In this document: one piece after another, positions 4,815 through 19,081 of the stretch | How the letters are laid out: each line of letters begins with the position of its first letter | Numbering within the stretch: position 1 is the first letter of the stretch | From: Pseudobdellovibrionaceae bacterium | GTDB lineage: Bacteria; Bdellovibrionota; Bdellovibrionia; Bdellovibrionales; Bdellovibrionaceae | Assembly: GCA_030158485.1 (NCBI GenBank) | Contig: JAOASS010000002.1 | Coordinates: forward strand, 1 to 64,000 | Reading direction: 5' to 3' | DNA length: 64,000 bases | Notes under the pieces: model-generated | Told to the model about the DNA's origin: nothing | The model's input: only the letters and a program-made list of their open reading frames with translations | Database searches by the model: none | Translations under genes and position numbers: made by a program

Positions 4815-5357
4815 TTAAAAAGTAACCGCGTACTGAACGTAAAAATCTTGATTTGAAATATCATCAGGCACGGGTGGGACTCGGGGGTTTGTCAGTAAAG
4901 ATGATTCCAAAGAGTGTGCCACTTGCTGATCTACACCTTTAACATCAACGCTTTCGATAAAGCCCACTTTTGTGATTTTAAGCCTGACCAAATAAGTTTG
5001 TTTTTCCTTGGCGATAAGTGAAGCTGATTTCTTTTTACGCAAAAGATTTTTCCATAAACTATTTAAATAAGGATGCGGAACTCCTGAATCAAGAGAAATC
5101 ATTTTTGCTAAGCCGAGATCTTCCCTCGCTTCAGTAGACTTTTCGACAAAGGAAGGTTGAGGACTTTTAGTTTGTGTTACGATAAGCGGTTGTTGCGTGA
5201 GTGTTGCTGACGTTAGCTGATTCGGCTTTACTTGAGATAGGATTTCAACATCGACTTGATCGAAATTTAAACTTCGATCTTCCAATTTTGTCATGGCGAA
5301 GTGGCCTAAGGCGCTGGCGTGGATTGCGAAAGAAATCATAATAAATTTGTAAAACAT
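4815..5357 (-). CDS. Short TonB-like energy transducer
   Basis: An N-terminal hydrophobic segment (residues 4-20) anchors the protein in the inner membrane. A Ser/Thr/Gln-rich linker follows, then a C-terminal region of about 90 residues with the YLVRLKITKVGFIESVDVKG strand pattern of the TonB C-terminal domain. The start overlaps the receptor stop by one base (TAATG), so the two are translationally coupled and this TonB probably serves that receptor. The linker is not the usual Pro-Lys/Pro-Glu rod. No exbB or exbD lies with it; it could use the set at 13.8-14.9 kb or one elsewhere. Confidence 0.75.
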   Translation of the reverse strand: MFYKFIMISFAIHASALGHFAMTKLEDRSLNFDQVDVEILSQVKPNQLTSATLTQQPLIVTQTKSPQPSFVEKSTEAREDLGLAKMISLDSGVPHPYLNSLWKNLLRKKKSASLIAKEKQTYLVRLKITKVGFIESVDVKGVDQQVAHSLESSLLTNPRVPPVPDDISNQDFYVQYAVTF

Positions 5358-7438
5358 TAAAATACCAAACTTAATCCCGCAAAAAAGCTGCGAGGCTGCC
5401 CGGGCTCAACACCATTTGAGCGAATTCTTGAAAAGTATTCTTCGTCTAAAACATTTTGGATTCCATACAAAAAGCGGCTTTCCGGGGCACCCCAAAGTTT
5501 TCCGATCACGTGTTCTCCGGTTAAATCAAAAAGTGTGTACCGAGGTATTTTGAAATTTGTTGAGTGAGCGTCGTCACCCGAATGTTTTTCAGTCCACTGG
5601 CCTTGCAAGCGTAAAACAGAATAATTTCCGTAAACGTACCCTAATCCAGCCCGAATGATACTCGACGGAGAATACTGAGTCGCTTTTACTTCCAAAGTGC
5701 CCGAAGTTATTCGAGATTTTAACCAAGAGCCACCTAAGTGCAAATTAAAAGAATCATTCAACTTCGAAGAAAAGGATGCATCCAGACCTTCGCTTTCAGA
5801 GGCACCAATATTTTTAAACACATTCCCAACACGACCAAATTGGTTTGAATAATTAACTTTAAATAAACTCACGTCAGCTTCAATTTTTTCGAATTGACCG
5901 CGGAACCCGAGTTCTCGAGACCAGGTTCTAGCTTCATTGATTTCTTCACTGACTAAGTCACCCGTTCCCAGTGGGATTGTATCCTGAAAAGAGGGTGGCT
6001 TATAACCTTCTGAAAGATTGGCGTAAGTTTGGTATTTGGGATTGAGCTGATATTCAAGTCCTAGTCCATATAAACTGACTGAATTTGTTTTACTGGTATT
6101 TCTTAAAGGGACAGCTGATCCTGAATTCTTATTTTCATCTATTTTTTGTTTGATATTTTCCAAACGAATGCCTGGAGTAACAGTCAGCTTGCCTGATTGA
6201 AAAGCATTTTCGACAGCGAAAGCTTGGCTGTCTGTTGCACGGTTGAGATCTTTTGTTTCAGTTCCAGTGGTCGCAGTCGGTGAGTCGCCTGTCATTTGTG
6301 AAAAAGGGGATTTTGTGGTCATGCCGGTTAGTGCGGCCGTGAGATGGTGATTTTCTCCGAATAAAGAATAGTTTTTAAGAAAACGCGCATCGAATCCGAT
6401 TGCTGAAAACTTTTGAACTTGAATCGTATTTGTTGTTCCAACAGCAATGCCTCCAAATGTGGGATTGCCACCTAAAGCTTGGCGAAAACTGGATCTTTCT
6501 AAATTTGTTGTCCAAACAGTGACAGAGCTTATCGTAGTCGGGGACCAATCTTCTTCCCAAGTGAGGCTCAAAGACTGTCGGTCGACTTCAAGGCGATCAT
6601 TTTCAAGTGTCGTTTTTTTAAAGCCGTCAGCTAATGAATAAATATTTGCACCTGACGTCCGAGCAAGGCCTCCGGGTTCACCGAAGTGACCTTGAAAAAC
6701 ATCAAGGTCGAAATAAAATCTTCGAAATTCCTGATTCGTCAGCCTGAAGTTAAAGCGCGGATTTAAAATTCGGCTGTCGGAGTTTTTTTCGCGAAATCCA
6801 TCAGTACCTCTGGCATGGAAAGACCCGAGATAACCTTTTTTTTCGTTTCCACCCGTGATTTCTGTATATGTGCTGATGCGATTAAAGCTTCCACCGATAT
6901 TTTTTGTGAGGATTTGGTTTTCTTGCCATTCGCTTGGTGCTGATTTTAATTTGAAGTTAAGTGCTCCCCCGGGTTGGGGGCCAAAAAGAAGTCCAGCGCC
7001 GCTTCGATAAAATTCTATTTTTGAAAGCGCTTCTGAGGGCGGACTGTAGTAAGCTGCTGGATAGCCATAGGGATCTGCTGCCATAGGAATTCCATCTCTT
7101 AACATCAGAATATTAAACCCTTCGTGAGGATCACCGAGCCCCCGTGAAGTCATACTGATATAAGATTCATTATTCACTTCTGATGTGATCAGACCTGGAA
7201 TTTCTGCAATTGTTTGTCGATAATTGTTATTGGGTACTGTTGGAATATTTTCTTGATCAATAGTCGTGACTTTTTTCCCTGAGACAATTTTTTTATCAAC
7301 TACTGTCGAGTTTGGAATATTTCGCGTTGTGGATTGTAAAGTCATGGGTGGTAACTCAAAAGTTTTTGAACCACGGCCTGAGCCCGATGTTGGGACTTGA
7401 GCAAATAAAGTAGAAGAAAAAATAAATGCGACTAACAT
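5357..7438 (-). CDS. TonB-dependent outer-membrane receptor
   Basis: A 693-residue protein with a signal peptide (cleavage after LFA), an N-terminal extension, a plug domain with SRGLGDPHEGFNILMLRDG and GAGLLFGPQPGGALNF, and a C-terminal beta-barrel with the typical RSFFAGLSLVF end. The plug resembles the ferric-dicitrate/siderophore receptor branch, so an iron complex is the likely cargo, but this is not proven by sequence. It is first in a two-gene unit with the TonB-like gene. The start follows GGAGGCTTT directly, and this ribosome-binding site lies in a 10-base-pair hairpin (7439-7482). Confidence 0.9.
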   Translation of the reverse strand: MLVAFIFSSTLFAQVPTSGSGRGSKTFELPPMTLQSTTRNIPNSTVVDKKIVSGKKVTTIDQENIPTVPNNNYRQTIAEIPGLITSEVNNESYISMTSRGLGDPHEGFNILMLRDGIPMAADPYGYPAAYYSPPSEALSKIEFYRSGAGLLFGPQPGGALNFKLKSAPSEWQENQILTKNIGGSFNRISTYTEITGGNEKKGYLGSFHARGTDGFREKNSDSRILNPRFNFRLTNQEFRRFYFDLDVFQGHFGEPGGLARTSGANIYSLADGFKKTTLENDRLEVDRQSLSLTWEEDWSPTTISSVTVWTTNLERSSFRQALGGNPTFGGIAVGTTNTIQVQKFSAIGFDARFLKNYSLFGENHHLTAALTGMTTKSPFSQMTGDSPTATTGTETKDLNRATDSQAFAVENAFQSGKLTVTPGIRLENIKQKIDENKNSGSAVPLRNTSKTNSVSLYGLGLEYQLNPKYQTYANLSEGYKPPSFQDTIPLGTGDLVSEEINEARTWSRELGFRGQFEKIEADVSLFKVNYSNQFGRVGNVFKNIGASESEGLDASFSSKLNDSFNLHLGGSWLKSRITSGTLEVKATQYSPSSIIRAGLGYVYGNYSVLRLQGQWTEKHSGDDAHSTNFKIPRYTLFDLTGEHVIGKLWGAPESRFLYGIQNVLDEEYFSRIRSNGVEPGQPRSFFAGLSLVF

Positions 7439-7482
7439 AAAGCCTCCGGTTCATTCATCTCTAAGAATTAAGCGGAGGCTTT
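7439..7482 (-). promoter_or_regulatory. Hairpin sequestering the ribosome-binding site of the receptor gene
   Basis: In the minus-strand messenger AAAGCCTCCG pairs perfectly with CGGAGGCTTT over 10 bases, and the 3' arm ends immediately before the receptor ATG. The arm contains the GGAGG ribosome-binding site and the opposite arm is CCTCC, so the folded form should block translation. The 24-base loop contains an ATG that opens an 8-codon reading frame running through the receptor start. There is no T tract, so it is not a terminator. Translational control by leader translation, a protein or a ligand is inferred. Confidence 0.6.
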
Positions 7483-7542
7483 ATAAAAATTAACTTTAAA
7501 TTAAATTTAAGCGCTAATTGAAACCCAATTGAGGGGTAGATG

Positions 7543-7565
7543 AAAGGCTATTGAGAATAGCCTTT
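7543..7565 (-). terminator. Hairpin terminator after the OmpA-family gene
   Basis: AAAGGCTATT pairs with AATAGCCTTT (10 base pairs, 3-base loop), 15 bases downstream of the minus-strand OmpA-family stop codon. The T run after the stem on the minus strand is short (three T, inside the stem end), so termination may be partial and the receptor gene further on could receive some readthrough. Confidence 0.55.
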
Positions 7566-7579
7566 GTCGCAAGAGTTAA

Positions 7580-8617
7580 TTACCAGATTGATTTTAAAAT
7601 CTCTTGCAATTTCGCTTCATCACTAACGCCAATAAATTTAATTTCAGCACGTCTGTTGACATTCAAATCATTGCTGATTGGTTGAGTATCTGAAAAACCT
7701 CGAGTCTGAATTTTAGTTTGGCCTAATTTATTTTCTTTTAGAATTTGAGCCACAACTTCTGCTCTTTTTTCAGAAAGGGGTTCGTTAATTTTTTCAGTGC
7801 CCGTTGAATCAGCATGACCCAAAACTTGAACTTCTTTTACTAATCCAGGGTTTTGTGCCAAAGCCGCACTTAATTTTTTTAACTGAGCTTCTCTTTCAGC
7901 GGGTATTTCAGAGCTATTAACGGCAAAAGTTGTTGCTGTTTCGTTGATCACTTCGGTCGCAGTGACTTCATTTTTTTCAACAGGAGTCACTGTTGTCGAT
8001 GTTGTTCTTACGCCAGTGGCACGATTGGCTTTTGGATTCCAGCCCATTTGAAAATCAATCATCGCTGTGTTGACAGTCTTATTATCAACATTCAAGTCCG
8101 TCATCAGGCGACCACCCACACGTGCCATAATACCTTTGTTAAGAGCAAACTCTTTCAATACTTGAACTCCAGCGAACTGAGCATCGGCCTGGTTGGCTCC
8201 GTATTGAATGCCTTTTTCAAAATACTGATTCGCGACCACGCCTGCTTGCCAACGATTTTCAAGTAAATACCGTGTCGCTAATTCAGCCACTCCTGTATTG
8301 ATCGCGCGATCTTGTGCTGCTGATCGTGAAAACTGCTGATTCATCATGCCCAGTCCCGCATCCAAAACAAAAGGTGATTCTGTCATGTAGTAGGACCCAA
8401 TTGCTTTAATTGACGTGGGCATTCCTTCACTTTCAATACTTGAATTTTGTTGATCAGTGTAACCGGCGTTGACTCCAAGGTAAGGAACAAATCCTGATGG
8501 CAAGACTGAAGTATCAGCTTCACGAGTCATTTGACCAGTTGTTGTATTGGCTTGTGAATCTGTTGCGGCTTGGGCAAGTGACAAGCTTAAAGTTAAAGCA
8601 ATAAATAGGGCTTTCAT
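7580..8617 (-). CDS. OmpA-family outer-membrane protein with C-terminal peptidoglycan-binding domain
   Basis: A signal peptide (MKALFIALTLSLSLAQA) is followed by about 170 residues with alternating short hydrophobic strands, consistent with an eight-stranded barrel, then a Thr/Glu-rich linker and an OmpA-like domain (GHADSTGTEKINEPLSEKRAE ... NRRAEIKF) that binds meso-diaminopimelate in the wall. The domain's key Asp and Arg are present. AGGAGA precedes the ATG. It is divergent from the beta-helix gene and ends in the hairpin at 7543-7565. The likely role is linking outer membrane and wall. Confidence 0.88.
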   Translation of the reverse strand: MKALFIALTLSLSLAQAATDSQANTTTGQMTREADTSVLPSGFVPYLGVNAGYTDQQNSSIESEGMPTSIKAIGSYYMTESPFVLDAGLGMMNQQFSRSAAQDRAINTGVAELATRYLLENRWQAGVVANQYFEKGIQYGANQADAQFAGVQVLKEFALNKGIMARVGGRLMTDLNVDNKTVNTAMIDFQMGWNPKANRATGVRTTSTTVTPVEKNEVTATEVINETATTFAVNSSEIPAEREAQLKKLSAALAQNPGLVKEVQVLGHADSTGTEKINEPLSEKRAEVVAQILKENKLGQTKIQTRGFSDTQPISNDLNVNRRAEIKFIGVSDEAKLQEILKSIW

Positions 8618-8934
8618 TTAAAAATCTCCTGTTGTTATGAGCCTCACAATGTGGATCCTGTCCTATTAATGGTCAAAATATTTTTTTGATTTATATTTTT
8701 TGACACAAGAGGGGATGCTTAAGCTTACACAAAGGGCAGATGTTGCAGTCGGCTTCAACTATTTAATGTGTGAAAACAAAATAAAGCGAGTTTGATGTTT
8801 TTTATAGCAATTTGTCAGTTTGTCAGCCTAGAGCAAACAATTTTCTAACAGATTCCTAAAATTTGTTGTTGGAAGTCTGACATGACTTCAGTTTCGCACT
8901 CAATCTATTTTGAGCCCATCAAAAAGGAGTGTGT
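8618..8934. promoter_or_regulatory. Divergent promoter region with tandem TTTGTCAG and a dyad
   Basis: This 317-base gap separates the OmpA-family gene (minus) from the Ton operon (plus). It holds a perfect tandem repeat of TTTGTCAG at 8811-8826 and an inverted repeat GAAGTC-N6-GACTTC at 8872-8889, 46 bases before the beta-helix ATG. Either could be a regulator site for the operon. TGTCA words recall Pho boxes, but the 8-base spacing is wrong for the 11-base repeat of that site. AAAGGAG at 8924-8929 is the beta-helix ribosome-binding site. I see no gene in the gap. Confidence 0.4.
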
Positions 8935-10200
8935 ATGAAAATGTTAATCACAACAATCGCGCTCACTTTCAGTGTGGCAGCATTAGCTTGCCCCAATGGA
9001 ACTGAGTCTAAAACAGTGAACGGTCTTAAGCTTTGTGCTCTTAAAGGTAACTATGTATCAACAGATTTACGCTTGACGGCAAAGTATGAATACTTAATCG
9101 AAGACGGAGTTTTTATCGGTGGCGATAATGAACAGAAGTCGACACTTCGTATTGAGCCAGGGACTGTTATTCGTGGAAACCCAGCTAGCTTTATTGCTGT
9201 TATGCGCGGTTCTCAAATTTTCGCAGAAGGAACAAAGCAAAAACCTATTACATTCACTTCGCTTAAAAAGTCTGAAAGAAAACGCGGCGAATGGGGTGGT
9301 CTTGTATTGAACGGAAATGCTCCTATTAACGCTTGTCGCGCTGGCGCTGCTGTTTGTGAAGCCGTTTCAGAAGGTATTAAAGTGCGGGAAGTTAAATTTG
9401 GTGGAAACCAACCCGAAGATAACAGCGGTGTGTTAAAATACATCCGTGTTGAATTCGCAGGCTACCCAATGGCTCCAGATAACGAGCTCAACGGGATTTC
9501 ATTTAACGGTGTGGGTTCTGGAACTGTGGTTGAGAACATTCAAGTACACATGAATTCTGATGATGGAATTGAATTTTTCGGCGGAACTGTTAATGCCAAG
9601 TATGTTGTTTTGACGGAAAATGAAGACGATTCACTTGATTGGGATATGGGCTGGAATGGAAAAATCCAATTTTTACTTGCTGATCAAGGAAACGATGTTG
9701 TCGACAGTGGTATTGAAGCAGACAACTTGAAGTCCCCAATGAATGCAAGTCCTCGATCCAATCCAACAATCAGCAATATGACTTTGATTGGTTCAGCCCA
9801 ATCAGGTTACGGGATTTTATTGCGCCGTGGAACGGGTGCACAAATTTACAATACGATTGTATCAGGTTTCAAAAAAGCTTGTTTTGATATTGATGACAAC
9901 GAAACTTTTGCGAATGCAAATTCAGCAGTTGGAATTGTTGTTAGTCACTCTATCTTAAGTTGCACAAAGCCATTTGATTCTAAACCAGAAGACTTGTTTT
10001 CAATTCAAGACTGGTTTGTGAAGCAAAAACAAAATAGTTTGGATAACCCAAAACTAAAAGGTTGGATGCCAGTGGCTGGTAGCCCTGCCCTTGGTAATGG
10101 TGTGACTCCAGATGATTTTTTCTTTGAACCAGTTGATTTTATCGGAGCATTTGGTTCTGAAAACTGGGCAAAAGGTTGGACTGTAAACGCTCGACAATAA
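8935..10200 (+). CDS. Exported beta-helix-type protein, Ton operon partner
   Basis: The ATG at 8935 follows AAAGGAG and starts a signal peptide ending ALA before CPNG. The body has the repeated short-strand pattern of a right-handed beta-helix, with GTVIRGNP, AEGTKQKPITFTS and GEWGGLVLNGNAPIN segments seen in a conserved family of exported proteins found beside TonB-dependent receptors. Acidic clusters (NSDDGIEFFGG and ENEDDSLDWD) could bind calcium or another metal. It is the first gene of the operon, separated from the receptor by two hairpins. The role is unknown: surface-exposed substrate capture is a reasonable guess. The cysteine after ALA could be lipidated, but the lipobox is poor. 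Confidence 0.75.
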   Translation: MKMLITTIALTFSVAALACPNGTESKTVNGLKLCALKGNYVSTDLRLTAKYEYLIEDGVFIGGDNEQKSTLRIEPGTVIRGNPASFIAVMRGSQIFAEGTKQKPITFTSLKKSERKRGEWGGLVLNGNAPINACRAGAAVCEAVSEGIKVREVKFGGNQPEDNSGVLKYIRVEFAGYPMAPDNELNGISFNGVGSGTVVENIQVHMNSDDGIEFFGGTVNAKYVVLTENEDDSLDWDMGWNGKIQFLLADQGNDVVDSGIEADNLKSPMNASPRSNPTISNMTLIGSAQSGYGILLRRGTGAQIYNTIVSGFKKACFDIDDNETFANANSAVGIVVSHSILSCTKPFDSKPEDLFSIQDWFVKQKQNSLDNPKLKGWMPVAGSPALGNGVTPDDFFFEPVDFIGAFGSENWAKGWTVNARQ

Positions 10201-10218
10201 AATTTAAAAAACATCTTT

Positions 10219-10270
10219 TTTCACCAGAGAACCTCCTCGTTTTCTGGTGAAATTGCTTATCGGAGCAATT
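10219..10270 (+). promoter_or_regulatory. Two hairpins between the beta-helix and receptor genes
   Basis: TTTCACCAGA (10219-10228) pairs with TCTGGTGAAA (10243-10252). Directly after, AATTGCT (10251-10257) pairs with AGCAATT (10264-10270), and the GGAG ribosome-binding site of the receptor (10262-10265) sits across its loop and 3' arm. There is no strong T run, so attenuation, messenger processing or translational control is more likely than full termination. The two stems overlap by two bases and would compete at their junction. Confidence 0.45.
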
Positions 10271-10273
10271 ATT

Positions 10274-13132
10274 TTGCTTAAAATAAAATTGAAAAATAAA
10301 ATGAGTTTTATTTTGCTGATGTTCATGATCAGCTTTTTTCAATTTTCTTTTGCGCAAAATTTAAACTCATCAAAAACAGGCGATCTATTTGTTCAAGCAT
10401 TTCAGGGAAATACACCGGTCATGGGTCTCAAAATTATCGTCCAGGACCAAGTGTATGAAACTAATTCGACAGGTTCCATTCTTCTTAATTTAGAAGCGGG
10501 AAGTTATTTGGTTCATGTTCCGCAAGGTGAACAAATTCTTCCTATTGAGATCCAAGAAGATCTTGAAACGCTTGTTAAAATTAATGTGAATCCACTTTTG
10601 AAAGCAAGCGCTGAAGTTGAAGCCGCACCAATTTTTAAGCCCCTGATGACGGCTGAGAGTACGAGCACGCTTCAATTCAAGGCACCCGAGACTACGGAAA
10701 ATACAATAGAAGAGTTTGTTGTCTTAGCTCCACAGAGTAAAGTTTCAATCGCAGCATTAATTGAAGTTCGTAAAAAAAGTTCTGGCGTAACTGAAGTATT
10801 AGGCTCGGAACAAATGTCACGACAAGGTGATTCAGATGCGGCAAGTTCCCTTCGAAGGGTCACGGGTTTAACGCTGATGGGTGGGAAGTATGTTTTTGTA
10901 AGAGGACTGGGTGATCGTTATTCTTCAATTCAGCTGAATGGATTTAAGCTTCCAAGCCCAGAACCTTCACGAAGAGTTGTTCCTTTAGATCTTTTTCCGA
11001 CTTCAATACTGGATAGTGTGATTGTGCAAAAAAATTATCTCAGTTCGTTTTCAGCCGATTTTGGAGGCGGACTGATTCAGCTGCAAACTCGAAATTTGCC
11101 TGATAAACTTTATGCACAAATCAATTTAGGGCAAAGTTTTAATGATGTTGATGACTACGCCAGCTATGCAGGAGGATCTCAAGATTGGACAGGGCACGAT
11201 GATGGGACTCGTCAAATGCCAGCAGCAATTCGATCTGCTTTAGCAACGGGAAAAAAACTGATCGAATCTCAAGATCCACAATTGGGTTTTACGAAAGAAG
11301 AACTCAGAGCTCTTGGTGCCTCGCTTAGAAAAAACTATTCAATAGTCGAAAAATCTTCTGAGCCTCTTCCTTCAATGCAAATAGGTTTAGGAAACACTTG
11401 GAAATTTGAAGGTTTTAACTTGGGAGCATCAAGCTCTGTAAGTTACAGCTCTGTTATCGATGTAGATGAAGAAAAAACGGCTCAGTTTGATGTTCCTCGG
11501 CCTGGGGAGCTTTCAAAATCTCAAGATGGTCGGTTGATCAGTTCAGAAGTTGATCGAAAATTATCGGGCACTTTGAATCTTGGAATTGATTTAAAAAAAG
11601 ATCATCGCCTGAGCATTTTGCTTCTTGCTCTTCGTCACAGCTCTGACGAAACCTCAGTCAATGAAACAACGGGTCCGGGAATCAATGACTATGCTCGAAA
11701 AAGAACTCGGACTGAATGGGTTGAAAGAGATCTCTTTATTCAGCAGCTCAAAGGCGGATCAAAAATTTCAGAACCTCTTCAGCTTGATTGGCGAATGGGG
11801 CGTTCCAGTGCAACAAGAAATGCTCCTGACAGCAAAGAATACGATTATCGTAAGATCACAAGTTCCGATCCCTTTCTTTTAGATCCTGAGGTGTCAGGAA
11901 ATATACGAAACTATAATAACTTAATAGAGTCCAATGACGAGTGGGGATTGGAACTGACACATGAGATTCAAAAATTTAAAACTCAAGTCGGCGTCAGTGA
12001 AATGGTACGTGATCGAAGTTCTGACACTTTTCGATTACAATACGTTAAAGACTATTTAGCGGGGGAAGCTCCTGATTTATCAAGAAGTCCTGATGAAATA
12101 TTTTCTGATGCTGAAGATTGGGTTCTGGTCAATCAGACGGGAACTGCGGATAGCTACTCTGGATTCCAACGGACTCAAAGTTTATTTTGGAATACACAGT
12201 GGCAACCGAACCCAAAGTATGAATTCATTTTAGGCCATCGTCTTGAAAATTCTGTTCAAAAAGTACAAACATTTTACTACTACAATAAAGATGATATTCA
12301 GTCTCTGGGTTTAAATGAATCACGAAATTTACTTCCATCCTATGCTATGACTTGGAAACCTAATGACGTCTTCCGATTGCGTTTCGCTTATGGTGAAAGC
12401 ATCGCGAGGCCTGACTTCAGAGAACTTTCGACTGTTCGGTATATCGATGACGACACGGGTTATGAAGCGAAAGGAAATACGGAACTTAAACAGACTATTA
12501 TTCGACATTTTGATCATCGAATTGAATATTACTTTCAAACTGACGAGTATATTTCTTTGGGATTGTTCTATAAAAGATTTCAAGATCCGATTGAAGATGT
12601 TTTTCAGCCGTCAGCAGGGTCTTTAATCAAAGTTCCTCAGAATGCAATCAGCGCGGAAAATCGTGGACTTGAAGTCGAGTCCCGTTTAAGCTTTCGTCAT
12701 CTCAACAGAGATTTGCGTCGATGGTCATTGATGGCTAATTATTCAATCATCGATTCTGAAGTGAAGCTTGATGAAGCAAAATCTTTTAATCTGACTTCAC
12801 GCGATCGAGCCCTTCAGGGGCAATCACCTTACGTTTTGAATATGAGCCTTTTTTATGATCGGCCGGCTGAGGGAATTAAAGCTTCATTACTTTACAATAT
12901 ACTAGGTCGACGTATCACCGAAGTTGGAACAGACTTAAGACCTGATATTTTCGAACAACCATCAGGTCAGCTCGATTTCGTGTTTTCTCAAAAAATCAAA
13001 AATAATATGCAACTTGGCTTTAAAGCACGCAACTTACTTGATCCATCTTTACAAGCGAAACAAGGTGACGAAATTGTGAGAACGCGAAAAAAAGGTCGAG
13101 CCTATTCTTTAGGGTTAACATGGGCCATCTAA
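10274..13132 (+). CDS. Large TonB-dependent receptor with N-terminal carboxypeptidase-regulatory-like domain
   Basis: The frame opens at GTG 10247, but TTG 10274 has GGAG eight bases upstream and gives a signal peptide with a basic start (KIKLKNK) and cleavage before QNLN; 10274 is chosen. Order: signal peptide; a small beta-sandwich extension to about residue 120; a TonB-box-like segment (EEFVVLAP); a plug with GGKYVFVRGLGDRYSSIQLNG; and a barrel of about 650 residues ending YSLGLTW. At about 950 residues it is large for the family, so a bulky ligand is possible. It is followed by all Ton energising genes and overlaps the ankyrin gene by 13 bases. Confidence 0.9.
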   Translation: MLKIKLKNKMSFILLMFMISFFQFSFAQNLNSSKTGDLFVQAFQGNTPVMGLKIIVQDQVYETNSTGSILLNLEAGSYLVHVPQGEQILPIEIQEDLETLVKINVNPLLKASAEVEAAPIFKPLMTAESTSTLQFKAPETTENTIEEFVVLAPQSKVSIAALIEVRKKSSGVTEVLGSEQMSRQGDSDAASSLRRVTGLTLMGGKYVFVRGLGDRYSSIQLNGFKLPSPEPSRRVVPLDLFPTSILDSVIVQKNYLSSFSADFGGGLIQLQTRNLPDKLYAQINLGQSFNDVDDYASYAGGSQDWTGHDDGTRQMPAAIRSALATGKKLIESQDPQLGFTKEELRALGASLRKNYSIVEKSSEPLPSMQIGLGNTWKFEGFNLGASSSVSYSSVIDVDEEKTAQFDVPRPGELSKSQDGRLISSEVDRKLSGTLNLGIDLKKDHRLSILLLALRHSSDETSVNETTGPGINDYARKRTRTEWVERDLFIQQLKGGSKISEPLQLDWRMGRSSATRNAPDSKEYDYRKITSSDPFLLDPEVSGNIRNYNNLIESNDEWGLELTHEIQKFKTQVGVSEMVRDRSSDTFRLQYVKDYLAGEAPDLSRSPDEIFSDAEDWVLVNQTGTADSYSGFQRTQSLFWNTQWQPNPKYEFILGHRLENSVQKVQTFYYYNKDDIQSLGLNESRNLLPSYAMTWKPNDVFRLRFAYGESIARPDFRELSTVRYIDDDTGYEAKGNTELKQTIIRHFDHRIEYYFQTDEYISLGLFYKRFQDPIEDVFQPSAGSLIKVPQNAISAENRGLEVESRLSFRHLNRDLRRWSLMANYSIIDSEVKLDEAKSFNLTSRDRALQGQSPYVLNMSLFYDRPAEGIKASLLYNILGRRITEVGTDLRPDIFEQPSGQLDFVFSQKIKNNMQLGFKARNLLDPSLQAKQGDEIVRTRKKGRAYSLGLTWAI

Positions 13133-13818
13133 TTAAATTAATTATTTTAAGTCTTCTGATTTTGAGTACATGGGGTTGTGGACAGCATTCAGCACAGAAT
13201 AATTTTTTTGTTAAATCTGGTGAAGATAAAACAATACAAGAAAGCCAAGAGCCGCTTGATAAAATGCAACGTGCGATTTTTGATGGAGATTATTTAGCTG
13301 TTCAAAATCTTATTTCAGAAGAATATCCAATCGATTCCATTTTAAAAAATGACAGAACGGCTTTAGCAGAAGCTTGTTTGCAAAGACAAAGTCGAATTAT
13401 TCGGATTTTAATCAACTCGAAAGCTCGTATTGACTTGAGCCCAATCGAAGGTGTTGATCTTTTGACTTGGGTAGAAGAGCAGACTGATGCAAAAAAAATT
13501 CTTCGAGCTCTTCTTAAAACTGAAATCGAAGATCAACTGGAATTTCTGGAAGTTTTAACCAAAAATAACTTTTCAGAAATTAAAAGTCTACTTGGTGAAG
13601 AAATAAATGTGAATTTTATTTCGGCTGAAGGTGAAACTCCTTTAATTTTAAGTATAAGAAATCGTTGGAATAATTCACTTCGTGTTTTATTTGCCGAGCC
13701 TATTTTAGATGTTAATTTCAAGAACTCAAAAGGCGAAACCCCTTTGAAAGTTGCTCGTGATTTAAAGCTTGTTCAAATAGAAAAAGAACTCTTACGCAGA
13801 AATGCTTCAGAAGAATAA
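13120..13818 (+). CDS. Ankyrin-repeat protein, probable lipoprotein
   Basis: An N-terminal signal segment ends in TWGC at about residue 20, an acceptable though not ideal lipobox. The rest carries ankyrin-type helix pairs, clearest as SAEGETPLILSIRNRW and SKGETPLKVARDL, with weaker copies before. Ankyrin folds bind proteins, so in the periplasm it may scaffold receptor and Ton proteins. The start codon lies inside the 3' end of the receptor gene (13-base overlap), and exbB follows after 17 bases. Placing an ankyrin protein between receptor and exbB is not part of standard Ton operons I know. Confidence 0.75.
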   Translation: MGHLIKLIILSLLILSTWGCGQHSAQNNFFVKSGEDKTIQESQEPLDKMQRAIFDGDYLAVQNLISEEYPIDSILKNDRTALAEACLQRQSRIIRILINSKARIDLSPIEGVDLLTWVEEQTDAKKILRALLKTEIEDQLEFLEVLTKNNFSEIKSLLGEEINVNFISAEGETPLILSIRNRWNNSLRVLFAEPILDVNFKNSKGETPLKVARDLKLVQIEKELLRRNASEE

Positions 13819-13835
13819 ACAGCAGGAGAATAAAA

Positions 13836-14483
13836 ATGACAGAAAGAATATTTGCAATTGCTCACTTTGCCGATCAAGTCGTGCTGTACTTGCTTTTAAT
13901 GTTAACGGCGTTAGCGTTATATTTAATAATTCAGCGATTTTTAATTTTAAATAAAGCTTCGACACAAAGTCGTAAAATAAAAGTCGATATTGAACAGGCT
14001 CTTATTCAAAGTCGATACGAATATGTTGAAACGCTGGCTCAAGATCTTAAAACGCCGGTGGGACGTATTTGCGCGGTGGCATTAAGACATTTTCAAGCAA
14101 AAGGTGTTATCGGACTTGAAGAACTTTTTCGTTCAATGACGATGCTCGAGAAACCACGTCTGGAAAAGTCTTTAGGTTTTTTGGCGACGGTGGGATCCAA
14201 TGCGCCGTATATTGGACTGTTCGGCACAGTGCTTGGAATTATGAAATCCTTCCATGATTTGGGACAGAGCTCGGGTGCTGGTCAAAACACTGTTATGGCA
14301 GGAATTTCAGCAGCTCTTATCGCGACGGCGGCAGGCTTACTTGTCGCTATTCCATCGGTGCTTGCTTATAATTATTTTCAAAGACAAGTCAAAGGAATCA
14401 TGAGTGGTGTTGATACAGCTCAAGAACTTTTTATGATTTATGCAAAATCGAAAGGAACAAATCATGGCATCGCAAGCTCATGA
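13836..14483 (+). CDS. exbB: ExbB/TolQ/MotA-family proton channel protein
   Basis: Three membrane helices are visible: residues about 15-33, 110-135 (VGSNAPYIGLFGTVLGIMKSF) and 150-180 (GISAALIATAAGLLVAIPSVLAY). The APYIGLFGTVLGI and AAGLLVAIP motifs are the conserved channel helices. With ExbD it uses the proton gradient to drive TonB. AGCAGGAG precedes the ATG. Overlap with exbD and tight packing support one transcript. TolQ is a possible alternative, but the neighbours are Ton, not Tol-Pal, genes. Confidence 0.92.
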   Translation: MTERIFAIAHFADQVVLYLLLMLTALALYLIIQRFLILNKASTQSRKIKVDIEQALIQSRYEYVETLAQDLKTPVGRICAVALRHFQAKGVIGLEELFRSMTMLEKPRLEKSLGFLATVGSNAPYIGLFGTVLGIMKSFHDLGQSSGAGQNTVMAGISAALIATAAGLLVAIPSVLAYNYFQRQVKGIMSGVDTAQELFMIYAKSKGTNHGIASS

Positions 14484-14874
14484 TTCTGATCAAGAAATAT
14501 CAGATATCAATATTGTTCCACTAGTCGACATTATCTTAGTGGTTCTCATTATTTTTATGGTGACGGCACCGGCTTTGATTAAGCCCAGTATTGAAGTTGA
14601 TTTGCCAGTCGCTTCTTCCAGTGATTCCACAGAGCCTTCATTCTTACAAGTTGCTGTTACGAGCGAAGGGAGAATTTTGATTAATAATCAAGATGCTGAT
14701 GAACAAACGACCCGCGAAATTGCAAGAATTGAACTTGATCGGAATCCAAAAGTTCAAGCGGTTATATCTGCTGACCAGCAATCTTACCATAAGCACGTCA
14801 TTCAGGTGATGGATTGGTTAAAAAAAGAAGGTGTTCAAGACTTTGCAGTTACGACTGAAAGAGAGATTTTATGA
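14464..14874 (+). CDS. exbD: ExbD/TolR-family proton channel protein
   Basis: The ATG at 14464 follows AAAGGAA and lies inside exbB. A short cytosolic N-terminus leads into one membrane helix with the essential aspartate (D22 in IVPLVDIILVVLIIFMV). A periplasmic domain follows, ending with the usual HKHVIQVMD-type segment (YHKHVIQVMDWLKKEGVQDF). It assembles with ExbB to couple proton flow to TonB. The stop overlaps the next gene by ATGA. Confidence 0.92.
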   Translation: MASQAHDSDQEISDINIVPLVDIILVVLIIFMVTAPALIKPSIEVDLPVASSSDSTEPSFLQVAVTSEGRILINNQDADEQTTREIARIELDRNPKVQAVISADQQSYHKHVIQVMDWLKKEGVQDFAVTTEREIL

Positions 14875-15605
14875 AACTGATAATATTACTTTGTTTTTTA
14901 ACTCAACTGACAAAGGCTTCTTCTTTAGGAGAAGTTCAGAAAATAATCGAACTTCGACAAAATGTTGAAACAGTTTCGCAAGAACTAGACCAGCAAAATC
15001 AGCGTCAAAATGCTGAAATTGAGATGCTGGTGCAAAGAAAAAACGAACTCGAGTTAAATTTTTCCAGAGACCGTCTCAAGTTACAAGTTCTTAAAAATAA
15101 AAGTGAATGGAATCAGAATCACAAAATTTCTGGATTAAAAACGTCAAAATCTGATGCCGTTTTTATTAAAAAATGGATTCTGGGTCTGCAAAATTGGGTT
15201 CAGCGATCGCTACCTATCAATCAAGAATCAAGACTTGAGCAAATTCTAGAATTTGAAAAAAGACTTCAGGCAGAAGAGCCAGTGGAAGTCTTAATCTGGG
15301 ATATTTGGTCATTTATTGACGGCGAAATTAAAATGACCAAGTCAAATCAGTATGAACTGATGAATTTACCACTTGCCGATCCCACTTTGGCAGAAGTCGC
15401 CAGGATTGGCATGTTACAAGTCTATTTTAAAACTCCTGATAAACAATATGGTTATGCTGTTAAAAATGATAAAAAATGGACTTACCAGATAACAAATCAA
15501 GAAATTGAAAAAGCAGCCATTCAAAAAATTTTGAATGCTGTTAAAGAAAAAAAATCTCGGACTCGTCTTGATTTTCCGGGTTTAGTTGTTCAGGGGAATC
15601 TATGA
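14871..15605 (+). CDS. DUF3450-like periplasmic coiled-coil protein of the Ton system
   Basis: A signal peptide (MKLIILLCFLTQLTKA) is followed by a long coiled coil (residues 20-85, heptads rich in Q, N, E and L). A C-terminal domain carries EVARIGMLQVYFKTPDKQYG, K-x-W and LDFPGL, which resembles DUF3450. That family is found in TonB2-type operons of marine gammaproteobacteria next to TtpC. No membrane anchor at the C-terminus. ATGA overlaps on both sides show tight translational coupling. Function in the family is not settled; a structural periplasmic link of the Ton complex is a reasonable inference. Confidence 0.7.
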   Translation: MKLIILLCFLTQLTKASSLGEVQKIIELRQNVETVSQELDQQNQRQNAEIEMLVQRKNELELNFSRDRLKLQVLKNKSEWNQNHKISGLKTSKSDAVFIKKWILGLQNWVQRSLPINQESRLEQILEFEKRLQAEEPVEVLIWDIWSFIDGEIKMTKSNQYELMNLPLADPTLAEVARIGMLQVYFKTPDKQYGYAVKNDKKWTYQITNQEIEKAAIQKILNAVKEKKSRTRLDFPGLVVQGNL

Positions 15606-16399
15606 AATTTTTGATGTTTTGTTTGTTTGTTTTTATAAGCTCTGCAAAAAGTGAGACTCAGACCCTTGATGAAGCTTTTAAAAAAGAGTTTGGTTATTTA
15701 GCCCTTCAAAAAGAAGTTCTTTTCAGGCAAAAGAGTCTTTCAAGTCAAAAGCACGACGCTGCAAAAAATAATTTAGAAAATCAAATCAAAGTGCTCGAGC
15801 AAAAAAATGCTCTTCAAGTTTTCGAAATTGAAGTTCTATCTGAAAAAGTGGCACGACTCGAAAAAAAGAAGCGTGAAGCTTACCAAAAAATTGATTCACT
15901 TGAAAGTGTTTATAAGAAAGCACGAAATTCTTTAGTCGAATTGAAGAGCGAACTCAATTTCGAAAAAAAAGCATCAGCTGCTAAATGGGAAACGAGTGAT
16001 ATCAAAATTAAAGACTTTGATCCGATAATAGAGCAAAGTTTTGCTTTATTGCATTCAGCTTCAAGTATCCAATCTGCAGATTCTTATTACCTCAATCTAG
16101 AGGGTGATTTAGTCAAAACAACTTTACTTCGATACGGTCGAATTGGAGCGCAGTTAATAGAAGAAGGAAAAAGTCGATTACTGGGCCCTAGCTCGCAAGG
16201 TATTTTAAAAGATTTAGGTCTTGTAGCAGAACTTGGACCGATTCGGAGTCTTGTCATATTTGAAAATTTAACTGATAAAATTGAACTTAAGCAAAGTGCT
16301 AATATGTGGGATAAGCTGGCTGATAAATTACCTTTGATAGTGCTTATTTTTATATTTTTAATAGTGATGGGGCTATTCACTCTTTTTGCGAAAGACTAA
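15602..16399 (+). CDS. TtpC-like N-terminal domain with a single membrane anchor, no ExbB channel
   Basis: A signal peptide, a coiled coil (residues about 45-125) and a domain with EGDLVKTTLLRYGRIGAQL resemble the periplasmic N-terminal part of TtpC, the long ExbB-like protein of TonB2 systems. Here the chain stops after one membrane helix (WDKLADKLPLIVLIFIFLIV and onward), where TtpC would continue into three ExbB-type helices. The separate exbB gene could supply that part. The gene is coupled to DUF3450 by ATGA and is followed by tonB after 8 bases. The TtpC match is from pattern, not alignment, so it is moderate. Confidence 0.6.
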   Translation: MKFLMFCLFVFISSAKSETQTLDEAFKKEFGYLALQKEVLFRQKSLSSQKHDAAKNNLENQIKVLEQKNALQVFEIEVLSEKVARLEKKKREAYQKIDSLESVYKKARNSLVELKSELNFEKKASAAKWETSDIKIKDFDPIIEQSFALLHSASSIQSADSYYLNLEGDLVKTTLLRYGRIGAQLIEEGKSRLLGPSSQGILKDLGLVAELGPIRSLVIFENLTDKIELKQSANMWDKLADKLPLIVLIFIFLIVMGLFTLFAKD

Positions 16400-16407
16400 A
16401 ACCTCAG

Positions 16408-17001
16408 ATGAAAAATTTATTTAAATTAATTTCTTTTGTTTTTTTCATCATGATAATTTTAGCAGCGTTCTTGTCTCACCAGGTGAAAGACTTAGAAGTT
16501 GTTGATGCACAAAAAGTTGATGAAAAAATTCAAATCAAAGTTCCTGAAAAAGTAGAACCTGTTCCGGTTGAAGAAACTTTGTCAGCAAAAAATGAGGCAC
16601 AGCTGATGCCCCAAAATGCACCTCTTCAAATGCCGCAGTTTTCTGGATTGTTAGGCGTGGGTTCTGGCCCAGGGCTCAACGCTGGACATGATAATTCGGC
16701 ATCTGACCTGATTGATCAAGCGCAGAATCAAGATCGGGCACCGCAAGTTCTAGTCAGAACTCAATTAGAATACCCCATTCAAGCGAAAGCAAAAGGACAA
16801 AAAGGTTACGTGGTATTTAAAGCTCTTATCAGTGAATCGGGTACATCTGTTGAAGCTCAAATTCTACAAAGTGAGCCTCGAGGTGTTTTTGATTCTGTTG
16901 TTTTAAATTCATTGAAGTCCTGGAAATTTTCCCCCGGAATTTTAAAAGGAAAAGTAGTTTCAATGTGGGTGACTCAAAAAGTGAGATTTGATTTTGAATA
17001 A
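16408..17001 (+). CDS. tonB: TonB-family energy transducer
   Basis: One N-terminal membrane helix (residues 5-22) is followed by a Val/Pro/Glu linker (KVPEKVEPVPVEET) and a C-terminal TonB domain with VRTQLEYPIQAKAKGQKGYV and LNSLKSWKFSPG. It spans the periplasm and pulls on the receptor plug using ExbB-ExbD energy. Gene order (exbB, exbD, DUF3450, TtpC-like, tonB, TPR) parallels TonB2 operons. Its end overlaps the next gene. Confidence 0.9.
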   Translation: MKNLFKLISFVFFIMIILAAFLSHQVKDLEVVDAQKVDEKIQIKVPEKVEPVPVEETLSAKNEAQLMPQNAPLQMPQFSGLLGVGSGPGLNAGHDNSASDLIDQAQNQDRAPQVLVRTQLEYPIQAKAKGQKGYVVFKALISESGTSVEAQILQSEPRGVFDSVVLNSLKSWKFSPGILKGKVVSMWVTQKVRFDFE

Positions 17002-18055
17002 ATTCTTTTTTATTTTTTTATTATCCTTACAAGCTTTAGCTCAAAATGCGACGATTCAAATCGAATCAATTTACGATGAGTACGAAGGTGTGGCTCTTGT
17101 TGAAGCGTTACTTCGAGACGGTAAAACTTTAGAAGCTGAAAACGTTTTGAGAAATGAAGTTGTTTCAGAATTTAAAACTCAAATTTTATGGGCTAAAATT
17201 TTTAATTTAAAAAAAGATCCGCGTGCGGCTTTGAAGTCTATTCAATCAATATCTTCTGTAAATGACGAAGTTCAGATTGAAACGCTGCTTGCGTATTATC
17301 AGTTAGAAAAATACGATTCGTGTGCTGCTGTTCGATTCAAAGATCAGCTTAAAGTATCTTTTCCTTTGATCAAGCTGCAAGTGGACTGCTTTATTCGCAC
17401 TAATCAATATGAAAAAGCTTATCAGGTTCTCAAGCAAAGAACAGATATTGATTCTGTTGATCGAAAATTTGACCTGCTTGTGAGCCTTGGGCTTTTTCAA
17501 CAGGCTTTGGACAGTGCCATTCAAAGGTCTTATGACCCAAGTCAGGTCGAAATCTTTTTAAAGTGGGCAGAGTCCCTACCAAAAAATGAAAAAGCCCTTT
17601 TTTTAGAAATACTCAGGCTACGTTTTCCGAATCAACCTCGAGTCCAAGGTGCCTGGGCTCAAAGTGAGTACTCGGCAGGACGAATGATTTCTGCAGCTTC
17701 AGGATTTAAAATAGCGAGTTTTTTAGACTCCTCCTTTTTTCACATAGCTGCAGAAGTTTTTCGGGCGAACCGCCAATTTTGTCAGGCGCAATATTTAGGT
17801 TCACAAATTGAAGAGCCCAAGCCTCATCTTAAGTTTAAACTGTCTCTTGCTATTGATCGTGGCCGATTTTCTGAAATCACAGGTTTGTCGGGCCCTTTTT
17901 TGCGAAGTGATCTAAACGAAGATCAGGATCTACATTACGCGATGGCTTTTTCATTTTTAAAACAAGGTTCTCTTAAAAAAGCTTCTTATCACAGAAAATT
18001 TATAAGCCGCGAAGATCTCATTCAGAAAAATAAAAAACTATTTTCAGAAAATTAA
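16994..18055 (+). CDS. Exported TPR-like protein, last of the Ton accessory set
   Basis: No ATG is available. TTG 16994 has a GTGAG sequence eight bases upstream and begins the signal peptide MNKFFFIFLLSLQALA; TTG 16988 is an alternative. The mature protein is almost all helix with degenerate tetratricopeptide-type pairs, for example FLLQ-like AEVFRANRQFCQAQYLG and HYAMAFSFLKQGSLKKASYH. A TPR protein (TtpB in Vibrio) commonly closes TonB2-type operons, which supports a role in this complex. It overlaps the tonB stop. Confidence 0.7.
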   Translation: MNKFFFIFLLSLQALAQNATIQIESIYDEYEGVALVEALLRDGKTLEAENVLRNEVVSEFKTQILWAKIFNLKKDPRAALKSIQSISSVNDEVQIETLLAYYQLEKYDSCAAVRFKDQLKVSFPLIKLQVDCFIRTNQYEKAYQVLKQRTDIDSVDRKFDLLVSLGLFQQALDSAIQRSYDPSQVEIFLKWAESLPKNEKALFLEILRLRFPNQPRVQGAWAQSEYSAGRMISAASGFKIASFLDSSFFHIAAEVFRANRQFCQAQYLGSQIEEPKPHLKFKLSLAIDRGRFSEITGLSGPFLRSDLNEDQDLHYAMAFSFLKQGSLKKASYHRKFISREDLIQKNKKLFSEN

Positions 18056-18124
18056 AAGAGCTTGAAATTAGGTCTTTATTCATGCCCAATTAATGAACGA
18101 CTTTTTAGTTAATAAGGGGGCATT

Positions 18125-19081
18125 ATGAATTCAGCAGTGAAATATTTCTCTTTAGGTCTTATCTTGATAAGTTTTAAAGTTCATTCTTTTGATAAGCCAT
18201 CGCAGATTCAGGTTCCATCCCATTTATTACAAAAACTCAAGTCTTTTGAGCCTTCCGGCAGTCTTTATCTAGAAGACTTGGATCGATATTTAATTGCAAG
18301 TGACGATACTACAAAAAAAAATGATCCTTGGCTTTTTTTAATGGATTCAAAAGGTGTTGTAGATGAATCTCCAGTTGTCATTGAAGGTGTACAAAAAATG
18401 ACAGATATTGAATCGATAAGTCAGGATGAAAACGGACTTTTGTATATTTTAGGTTCTCAAAGTTTAAATAAAAATGGGAAAAACTTAAAGGAACGAAATC
18501 TTTTCTTACGTGCAGAAAGAATCGGACGAAATATTCAAGTATCAGATGCAATTGAGCTCCGCCCCCTTTTATTAAAAGCTTTATTAGACTCTTCTGAAAG
18601 TGAGATTTTACTTTTGCGCAGCCAGCTAGAAGCTGGGCTTGATATTGAATCTCATTTTATATTCAGTGGGCAATTGTATTTAGGTTTTAAAAACCCTCAA
18701 ACTCAAGAGGGTCAAGCTTTGATCGTCAATATGGGTTCCGTCGACAATCTTTTTCTTCATCAAAGTTTGGAAAAAATAACGCTTAGTAAGCAGATCAACT
18801 TTTATGCATTATCAGGTCATCCTGATTTGCTTTCTGAAATTTTAAAAGTTGGAGACCTGTTGTTCCTGACAACGACATCCGAAGATTCAATTGGGCGCTT
18901 GTGGAGCTACAATTTAAAAAGTGAAGAACTCAAGATCATCGAAAATTATGAAAACTTACGTCCCGAAGCAGTTGCCTATAACTCGTTTAAAAGTGAACTC
19001 TTGATATTTTTTGATCAGGGAGATGAAGCCGCTTTATTTCAGCGAAGACTTATAAACCAAAAGGGCAAAATTGCGTTTTAA
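18125..19081 (+). CDS. Exported DUF3616-like beta-propeller protein
   Basis: A signal peptide (ending VHSF) is followed by repeated four-strand blades with GSLYLEDLDRYLIASDDT, WLFLMDSKGVVDES and DIESISQDENGLLYILGSQS. These recall DUF3616 and esterase/phytase-like propellers of bacteria. A clear GGGG-type ribosome-binding site (AAGGGGGCATT) precedes the ATG. The 69-base gap after the TPR gene means it may be on the same transcript or its own. If phytase-like, the upstream receptor could import a phosphate compound, but catalytic residues cannot be assigned here. Confidence 0.6.
   Translation: MNSAVKYFSLGLILISFKVHSFDKPSQIQVPSHLLQKLKSFEPSGSLYLEDLDRYLIASDDTTKKNDPWLFLMDSKGVVDESPVVIEGVQKMTDIESISQDENGLLYILGSQSLNKNGKNLKERNLFLRAERIGRNIQVSDAIELRPLLLKALLDSSESEILLLRSQLEAGLDIESHFIFSGQLYLGFKNPQTQEGQALIVNMGSVDNLFLHQSLEKITLSKQINFYALSGHPDLLSEILKVGDLLFLTTTSEDSIGRLWSYNLKSEELKIIENYENLRPEAVAYNSFKSELLIFFDQGDEAALFQRRLINQKGKIAF

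Follow-up and report, generated by a model that had tools for sequence, protein, structure and literature searches.

A conserved Ttp-type Ton operon of Bdellovibrionota with a short TtpC, an ExbB/ExbD motor of another lineage, and a probable Pho-type promoter

Some Ton systems require TtpB, TtpC, and TtpD on top of TonB, ExbB, and ExbD, for reasons that are still open, and a list of unknowns published in 2025 includes the roles of additional N-terminal domains, such as DUF3450, found on ExbB-family proteins (PMC12505986). The closest described relatives of the locus studied here are the TonB2 and TonB3 systems of Vibrio, which share with it TtpB (DUF3450), the periplasmic domain of TtpC, ExbB, ExbD, a short TonB, and TtpD in one operon, the TonB3 operon also including a receptor gene. 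TonB2 is iron regulated in Vibrio, and in Vibrio vulnificus TtpB, TtpC, TtpD, ExbB2, ExbD2, and TonB2 are all essential for uptake (PMC6957404). Caulobacter provides a second point of comparison in ElpS (CC_0170) and Cc0171, where an exported-protein gene adjoins that of a TonB-dependent receptor; ElpS is produced in cells starved of phosphate, has conserved counterparts in many bacteria, and reaches the cell surface without help from the type II system (PMC2996285). PhoB of Caulobacter controls various TonB-dependent receptors as well as the type II system (PMC11208175).

Here, we analyzed a stretch of 64,000 nucleotides (the window) from a Pseudobdellovibrionaceae bacterium with a genome assembly of 2.48 Mb. 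Hits in Pseudobacteriovorax, Bacteriovoracaceae, and Silvanigrellales locate this genome within Bdellovibrionota, broadly defined. The ten open reading frames between positions 8935 and 19081 are all real, lie on the + strand, and follow the order given in the original prediction; together with two noncoding elements they make up the following features:

8841..8860, + strand: 11-bp-period direct repeat TTTTCTAACAGATTCCTAAA, a probable PhoB box (Gibbs motif)
8935..10200, + strand: ElpS-like exported right-handed beta-helix protein (weak Pfam Beta_helix match, AlphaFold model)
10219..10252, + strand: 14-bp hairpin followed by a weak T tail, separating the genes for the beta-helix protein and the receptor
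10301..13132, + strand: TonB-dependent receptor with an N-terminal extension and a TonB-box-like EEFVVLAP (Pfam plug and barrel; sequence)
13120..13818, + strand: ankyrin-repeat lipoprotein, N-terminus ending LSTWGC-GQH (Ank_2; Cys-x-x-His conserved in relatives)
13836..14483, + strand: ExbB/TolQ-type stator subunit of the Bdellovibrionales stand-alone lineage
14440..14874, + strand: ExbD/TolR-type subunit of the same lineage as its ExbB partner
14871..15605, + strand: TtpB (DUF3450), periplasmic coiled coil (DUF3450 E=6e-8; PMC6957404)
15602..16399, + strand: gene 7, truncated TtpC with a long coiled coil and without ExbB domain (hhalign 99.7%, one transmembrane helix, model)
16408..17001, + strand: short TonB (Pfam TonB_C, tree)
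16988..18055, + strand: gene 9, TtpD-like helical-repeat (TPR) protein (position; homologous to the final gene in sister loci)
18125..19081, + strand: gene 10, exported protein (no Pfam family, no homologue in the fetched loci)

Five junctions within this run overlap, namely, receptor/ankyrin (13 bp), ExbB/ExbD (44 bp, smaller with a later start), ExbD/DUF3450 and DUF3450/gene 7 (4 bp each), and TonB/TPR (14 bp); the remaining open reading frames are separated by gaps of 8 to 46 bp, with ∼70 bp ahead of gene 10. Starting the receptor at the ATG at 10301 yields a signal peptide. A search for promoters and terminators inside the run found promoter-like sites (28 compared to 23.7 ± 5.8 expected) and terminator-like sites (9 compared to 8.5 ± 3.0) at chance level, without excess, the one exception being the hairpin at 10219-10252, a possible mRNA processing site or partial terminator that could raise the output of the first gene relative to the rest of the operon. 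Rfam and tRNA scans of the window gave no matches. Just upstream and divergent from the operon, positions 5357-8617 of the − strand encode another TonB-dependent receptor, of 693 aa with a FecA-like plug and barrel, as well as a protein of the OmpA family. Most of the protein families proposed at the outset were recovered by Pfam (TonB-dependent receptor, ankyrin repeats, ExbB, ExbD, DUF3450, and TonB_C); the exceptions are gene 7, which has no significant Pfam family, gene 9, whose TPR-like match is weak, and gene 10, for which neither a Pfam family nor, by sequence search, a PDB relative was found.

We compared gene neighborhoods in the loci around the beta-helix gene from other Bdellovibrionota and in the 80 best beta-helix loci, among which the arrangement of the window was also looked for outside Bdellovibrionota, labeling the neighbors with profiles derived from sequences of the window and of its relatives. 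In relatives the genes are not scattered: beta-helix, receptor, ankyrin, ExbB, ExbD, DUF3450, short TtpC, TonB, and TPR (type B) follow each other in identical order in 17 Bdellovibrionota genomes of five families, which is far beyond chance. These nine genes are a conserved operon, and gene 10, the supposed propeller, lies outside the conserved run and has no homologue in any of the loci compared. A sister architecture (type A), or a close variant of it, is found in other Bdellovibrionota, Nitrosomonas, Methylomonas, Methylothermaceae, Myxococcota, a Planctomycetota bin, and Alteromonadales, in the order beta-helix, DUF3450, full TtpC, short ExbB, ExbD, TonB, TPR, and receptor, with the ankyrin gene last in Bdellovibrionota only. 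Type A has the same components and likely the same task but differs in its full-length TtpC with three transmembrane helices, its second, small ExbB, and its Ttp-lineage ExbD.

The gene set is a known kind of system and not a wholly new one, and the suspected kinship with Vibrio TonB2-type operons is borne out by the presence of TtpB, the periplasmic part of TtpC, ExbB, ExbD, TonB, and TtpD. Among the Ttp hallmarks, the window has TtpB/DUF3450 (one clade within its family), TonB, and a terminal TtpD (TPR), and it lacks the TtpC-ExbB fusion and Ttp-lineage ExbB2/ExbD2. Compared to Vibrio TonB2 and TonB3, its TtpC is without the ExbB domain, its ExbB and ExbD belong to another lineage, the gene order differs, an ankyrin lipoprotein and a beta-helix protein are added, and the promoter appears to be of the Pho type instead of the Fur type.

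The beta-helix protein and the ankyrin protein had both been regarded as nonstandard, a view that the wider comparison does not support. Genes for the beta-helix protein and the receptor are adjacent or in one operon in nearly all loci, including those of Alteromonas, Pseudoalteromonas, Nitrosomonas, and Myxococcota, among others, and often come with the full DUF3450-TtpC-ExbB-ExbD-TonB set. In Indioceanicola, the pair precedes gsp genes, as described for Caulobacter. Judged by gene order and by the described homologues, the pair matches ElpS/Cc0171 of Caulobacter, with which it probably shares a link to phosphate starvation; as the counterpart of ElpS/Cc0171, the beta-helix protein is a standard partner of the receptor. 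Unlike the Caulobacter locus, the window has a dedicated Ttp machine in place of type II secretion genes, and its exported protein has no clear lipobox: the Cys of its N-terminal ALAC is conserved, in a noncanonical context. The AlphaFold model is a right-handed beta-helix, for which a fold search returned the generic polysaccharide-lyase/epimerase/tailspike fold with no activity indicated, and PDB sequence searches with the beta-helix protein and the receptor found no relatives. In Gammaproteobacteria (loci L048, L049, L066, L086, and others), the beta-helix protein is much longer (∼900 to 1400 aa), indicating an extra N-terminal region there. A homologue with 40% identity at 80005-81072 of LR745206.1, a 634-kb record labeled uncultured phage, may be a genuine phage gene or the result of mis-binning.

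The ankyrin protein was found only in Bdellovibrionota among the sampled loci, where it is standard: its gene adjoins that of the receptor in nearly all loci of both architectures. Where the N-terminus is intact, it almost always carries a lipoprotein-like Cys, in many copies with x-x-His after it. The ankyrin lipoprotein is a Bdellovibrionota addition to the system.

The ExbB and ExbD of the operon have a different origin from its other parts. In the ExbB tree, the window protein groups with stand-alone ExbB of Bdellovibrionales (support 95/94), and AU tests rejected its placement with type A ExbB (p=0.0002) or with the ExbB domain of TtpC (p=3e-6). The ExbD tree agrees, placing the protein in the stand-alone instead of the Ttp lineage, and the other type B parts each form one clade (beta-helix, 97; receptor, 94; TtpB, 98; TonB, 96). 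The closest relative of the operon motor is the stand-alone ExbB/ExbD pair of the same genome (C9:89620-90654; 52% identity), which differs in having no TonB, TtpB, TtpC, TtpD, or receptor nearby. The conserved Bdellovibrionales neighborhood of this pair includes an FHA-domain protein, a sulfatase-like protein, pssA, and asd; in one complete genome (L134, G002:C1:527879-528505), the matched stretch of stand-alone ExbB has one in-frame TAA. Profiles and trees thus identify the ExbB/ExbD of the operon as derived from the stand-alone pair of the lineage, which would have replaced the usual motor, a swap that is new in the searches made here.

The identification of gene 7 as TtpC-like also stood, with the qualification that it is the N-terminal part of TtpC: its profile aligns to residues 14 to 270 of the 448-column TtpC profile (99.7%, hhalign). 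The protein has one C-terminal membrane helix, compared to three in full-length TtpC, and so lacks all that follows the first ExbB helix. In the model (mean pLDDT, 77), a signal peptide precedes a helix spanning residues 22 to 117, which is followed by a small beta domain and then by the terminal helix. Across 369 Bdellovibrionota genomes, TtpC lengths are bimodal, with ∼254 to 294 aa in 17 genomes and ∼402 to 493 aa in 22, and the two forms never occur together in the same genome. Of two outlying lengths, one is due to a contig end and the other to an over-long reading frame. A frameshift artifact is ruled out by the 17 genomes and by the lack of an ExbB remnant before tonB. The case for TtpB and TtpC being paralogues is weak, with hhalign values of 91 to 94% over short, different stretches. 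Our literature search found no described split TtpC, and the single-helix form with its apparent loss of the ExbB domain is, in the searches made here, new.

The link to phosphate comes from the promoter. A Gibbs motif learned only from 33 Bdellovibrionota beta-helix promoters (log-likelihood, 458 compared to 332 to 348 shuffled) has the consensus CCTAAC-AGAAT-CCTAAC with an 11-bp period. In pst loci, which were not part of the training, the motif scores at p≤0.042 upstream of 11 of 14 pst operons (Mann-Whitney, 9e-6), higher than at almost every other gene start, and two more sites are at or near mis-assigned or divergent starts. Written as a pattern, it has seven matches in the genome of the window, of which the only two upstream of genes precede this operon and pst, the others being intragenic; the score at pst in this genome is moderate (10.7 compared to 18.2). 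That these two are the only matches upstream of genes suggests that the repeat at 8841-8860 is probably the Pho box of this lineage. The E. coli Pho-box consensus has no match in the window promoter (9/14, p=0.75) and is absent in Bdellovibrionota. Outside this phylum, E. coli-type Pho boxes (at least 11 matches) precede the beta-helix gene in 45% of cases compared to 2% after shuffling, and in Alteromonas, phoB, phoR, and the phosphate-binding protein gene pstS adjoin the locus. None of the papers searched described a Pho-controlled Ttp system, and a putative Pho-box repeat that is learned from beta-helix promoters and also marks pst promoters is likewise new in our searches.

Taken together, the operon is likely to encode a Ttp-type Ton importer that is dedicated to one receptor, is induced by phosphate starvation, and runs on a swapped motor. 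At low phosphate, a PhoB-type regulator would bind the repeat and the operon would be transcribed. At the outer membrane, the beta-helix protein and the receptor would capture a phosphorus-containing nutrient in the manner of an ElpS/Cc0171-like pair, with the ankyrin lipoprotein, given its lipobox-like Cys, presumably beside the receptor in the periplasm. ExbB/ExbD would act as the proton-driven motor and TonB would pass the force to the receptor, while TtpB, truncated TtpC, and TtpD, by homology to Vibrio TonB2, would form the periplasmic scaffold; the requirement for all six TonB2 proteins in V. vulnificus supports a transport role. The proposal of a distinct import system for one bulky substrate holds in part: the Ton machine is self-contained and has its own receptor, but it is of a known kind, and the Pho-box-like repeat suggests phosphorus instead of just any bulky substrate. 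That one TonB serves one receptor is plausible in this genome, whose TonB-dependent receptors with a plug domain number four and whose TonB C-terminal domains number six. One of these six, on contig 5 (C5:46106-46821), lies directly beside another TonB-dependent receptor, which suggests a second receptor-dedicated arrangement.

The near-constant adjacency of the beta-helix and receptor genes would also fit a Ton machine that, instead of importing a nutrient, uses the receptor to export the beta-helix protein or display it on the surface, a role reportedly proposed for Oar in Myxococcus. The type II-independent route of Caulobacter ElpS to the surface is in line with this (PMC2996285), but the receptor has the ordinary plug-and-barrel build, import is the known function of Ttp systems (PMC6957404), and Pho control fits scavenging; we consider export unlikely. 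We give equally little credence to an importer of iron/siderophores or polysaccharides in which another OmpR-family regulator binds the Pho-like repeat. The iron regulation of Vibrio TonB2 (PMC6957404) and the resemblance of the beta-helix fold to polysaccharide lyases and epimerases would favor it, whereas the recurrence of the motif at pst promoters, a run free of siderophore and glycan genes, and the Pho boxes and PhoBR/PstS genes beside homologues elsewhere argue for phosphorus.

Because the trees are unrooted, we infer the direction of the change in motor and TtpC. The distribution of the two forms suggests that TtpC lost its ExbB domain, rather than being fused to it later in the sister type, and the simplest history is one event in Bdellovibrionota, in which a copy of the local stand-alone pair would have taken over from the original ExbB2/ExbD2 and TtpC would have shed its motor domain, leaving a rod anchored by one helix. 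Unrooted trees would also fit an ancestral short TtpC from which the widespread form arose by fusion to ExbB; yet full TtpC occurs in several phyla and the short form, among sampled loci, only in Bdellovibrionota, and type B ExbB derives from the local stand-alone pair, which makes this order of events slightly less credible still than the two alternatives above.

For the phosphate-starvation-induced importer that we favor, the main points of note are the Pho-type promoter and the motor swap with a split TtpC. The conserved motif offers a candidate Pho box that can be tested in Bdellovibrionota, and it would connect phosphorus with an outer-membrane system that is common yet little studied. 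On balance, we lean toward viewing the periplasmic rod of TtpC as a separable adaptor, which in Bdellovibrionota would work in trans as a single-helix protein with a motor recruited from stand-alone ExbB/ExbD, the Ttp scaffold and the stator being exchangeable modules. Such a natural split, in which TtpC has parted from its ExbB domain and the motor can be traced to a foreign source, would reveal which part is dispensable and make the rod testable on its own.
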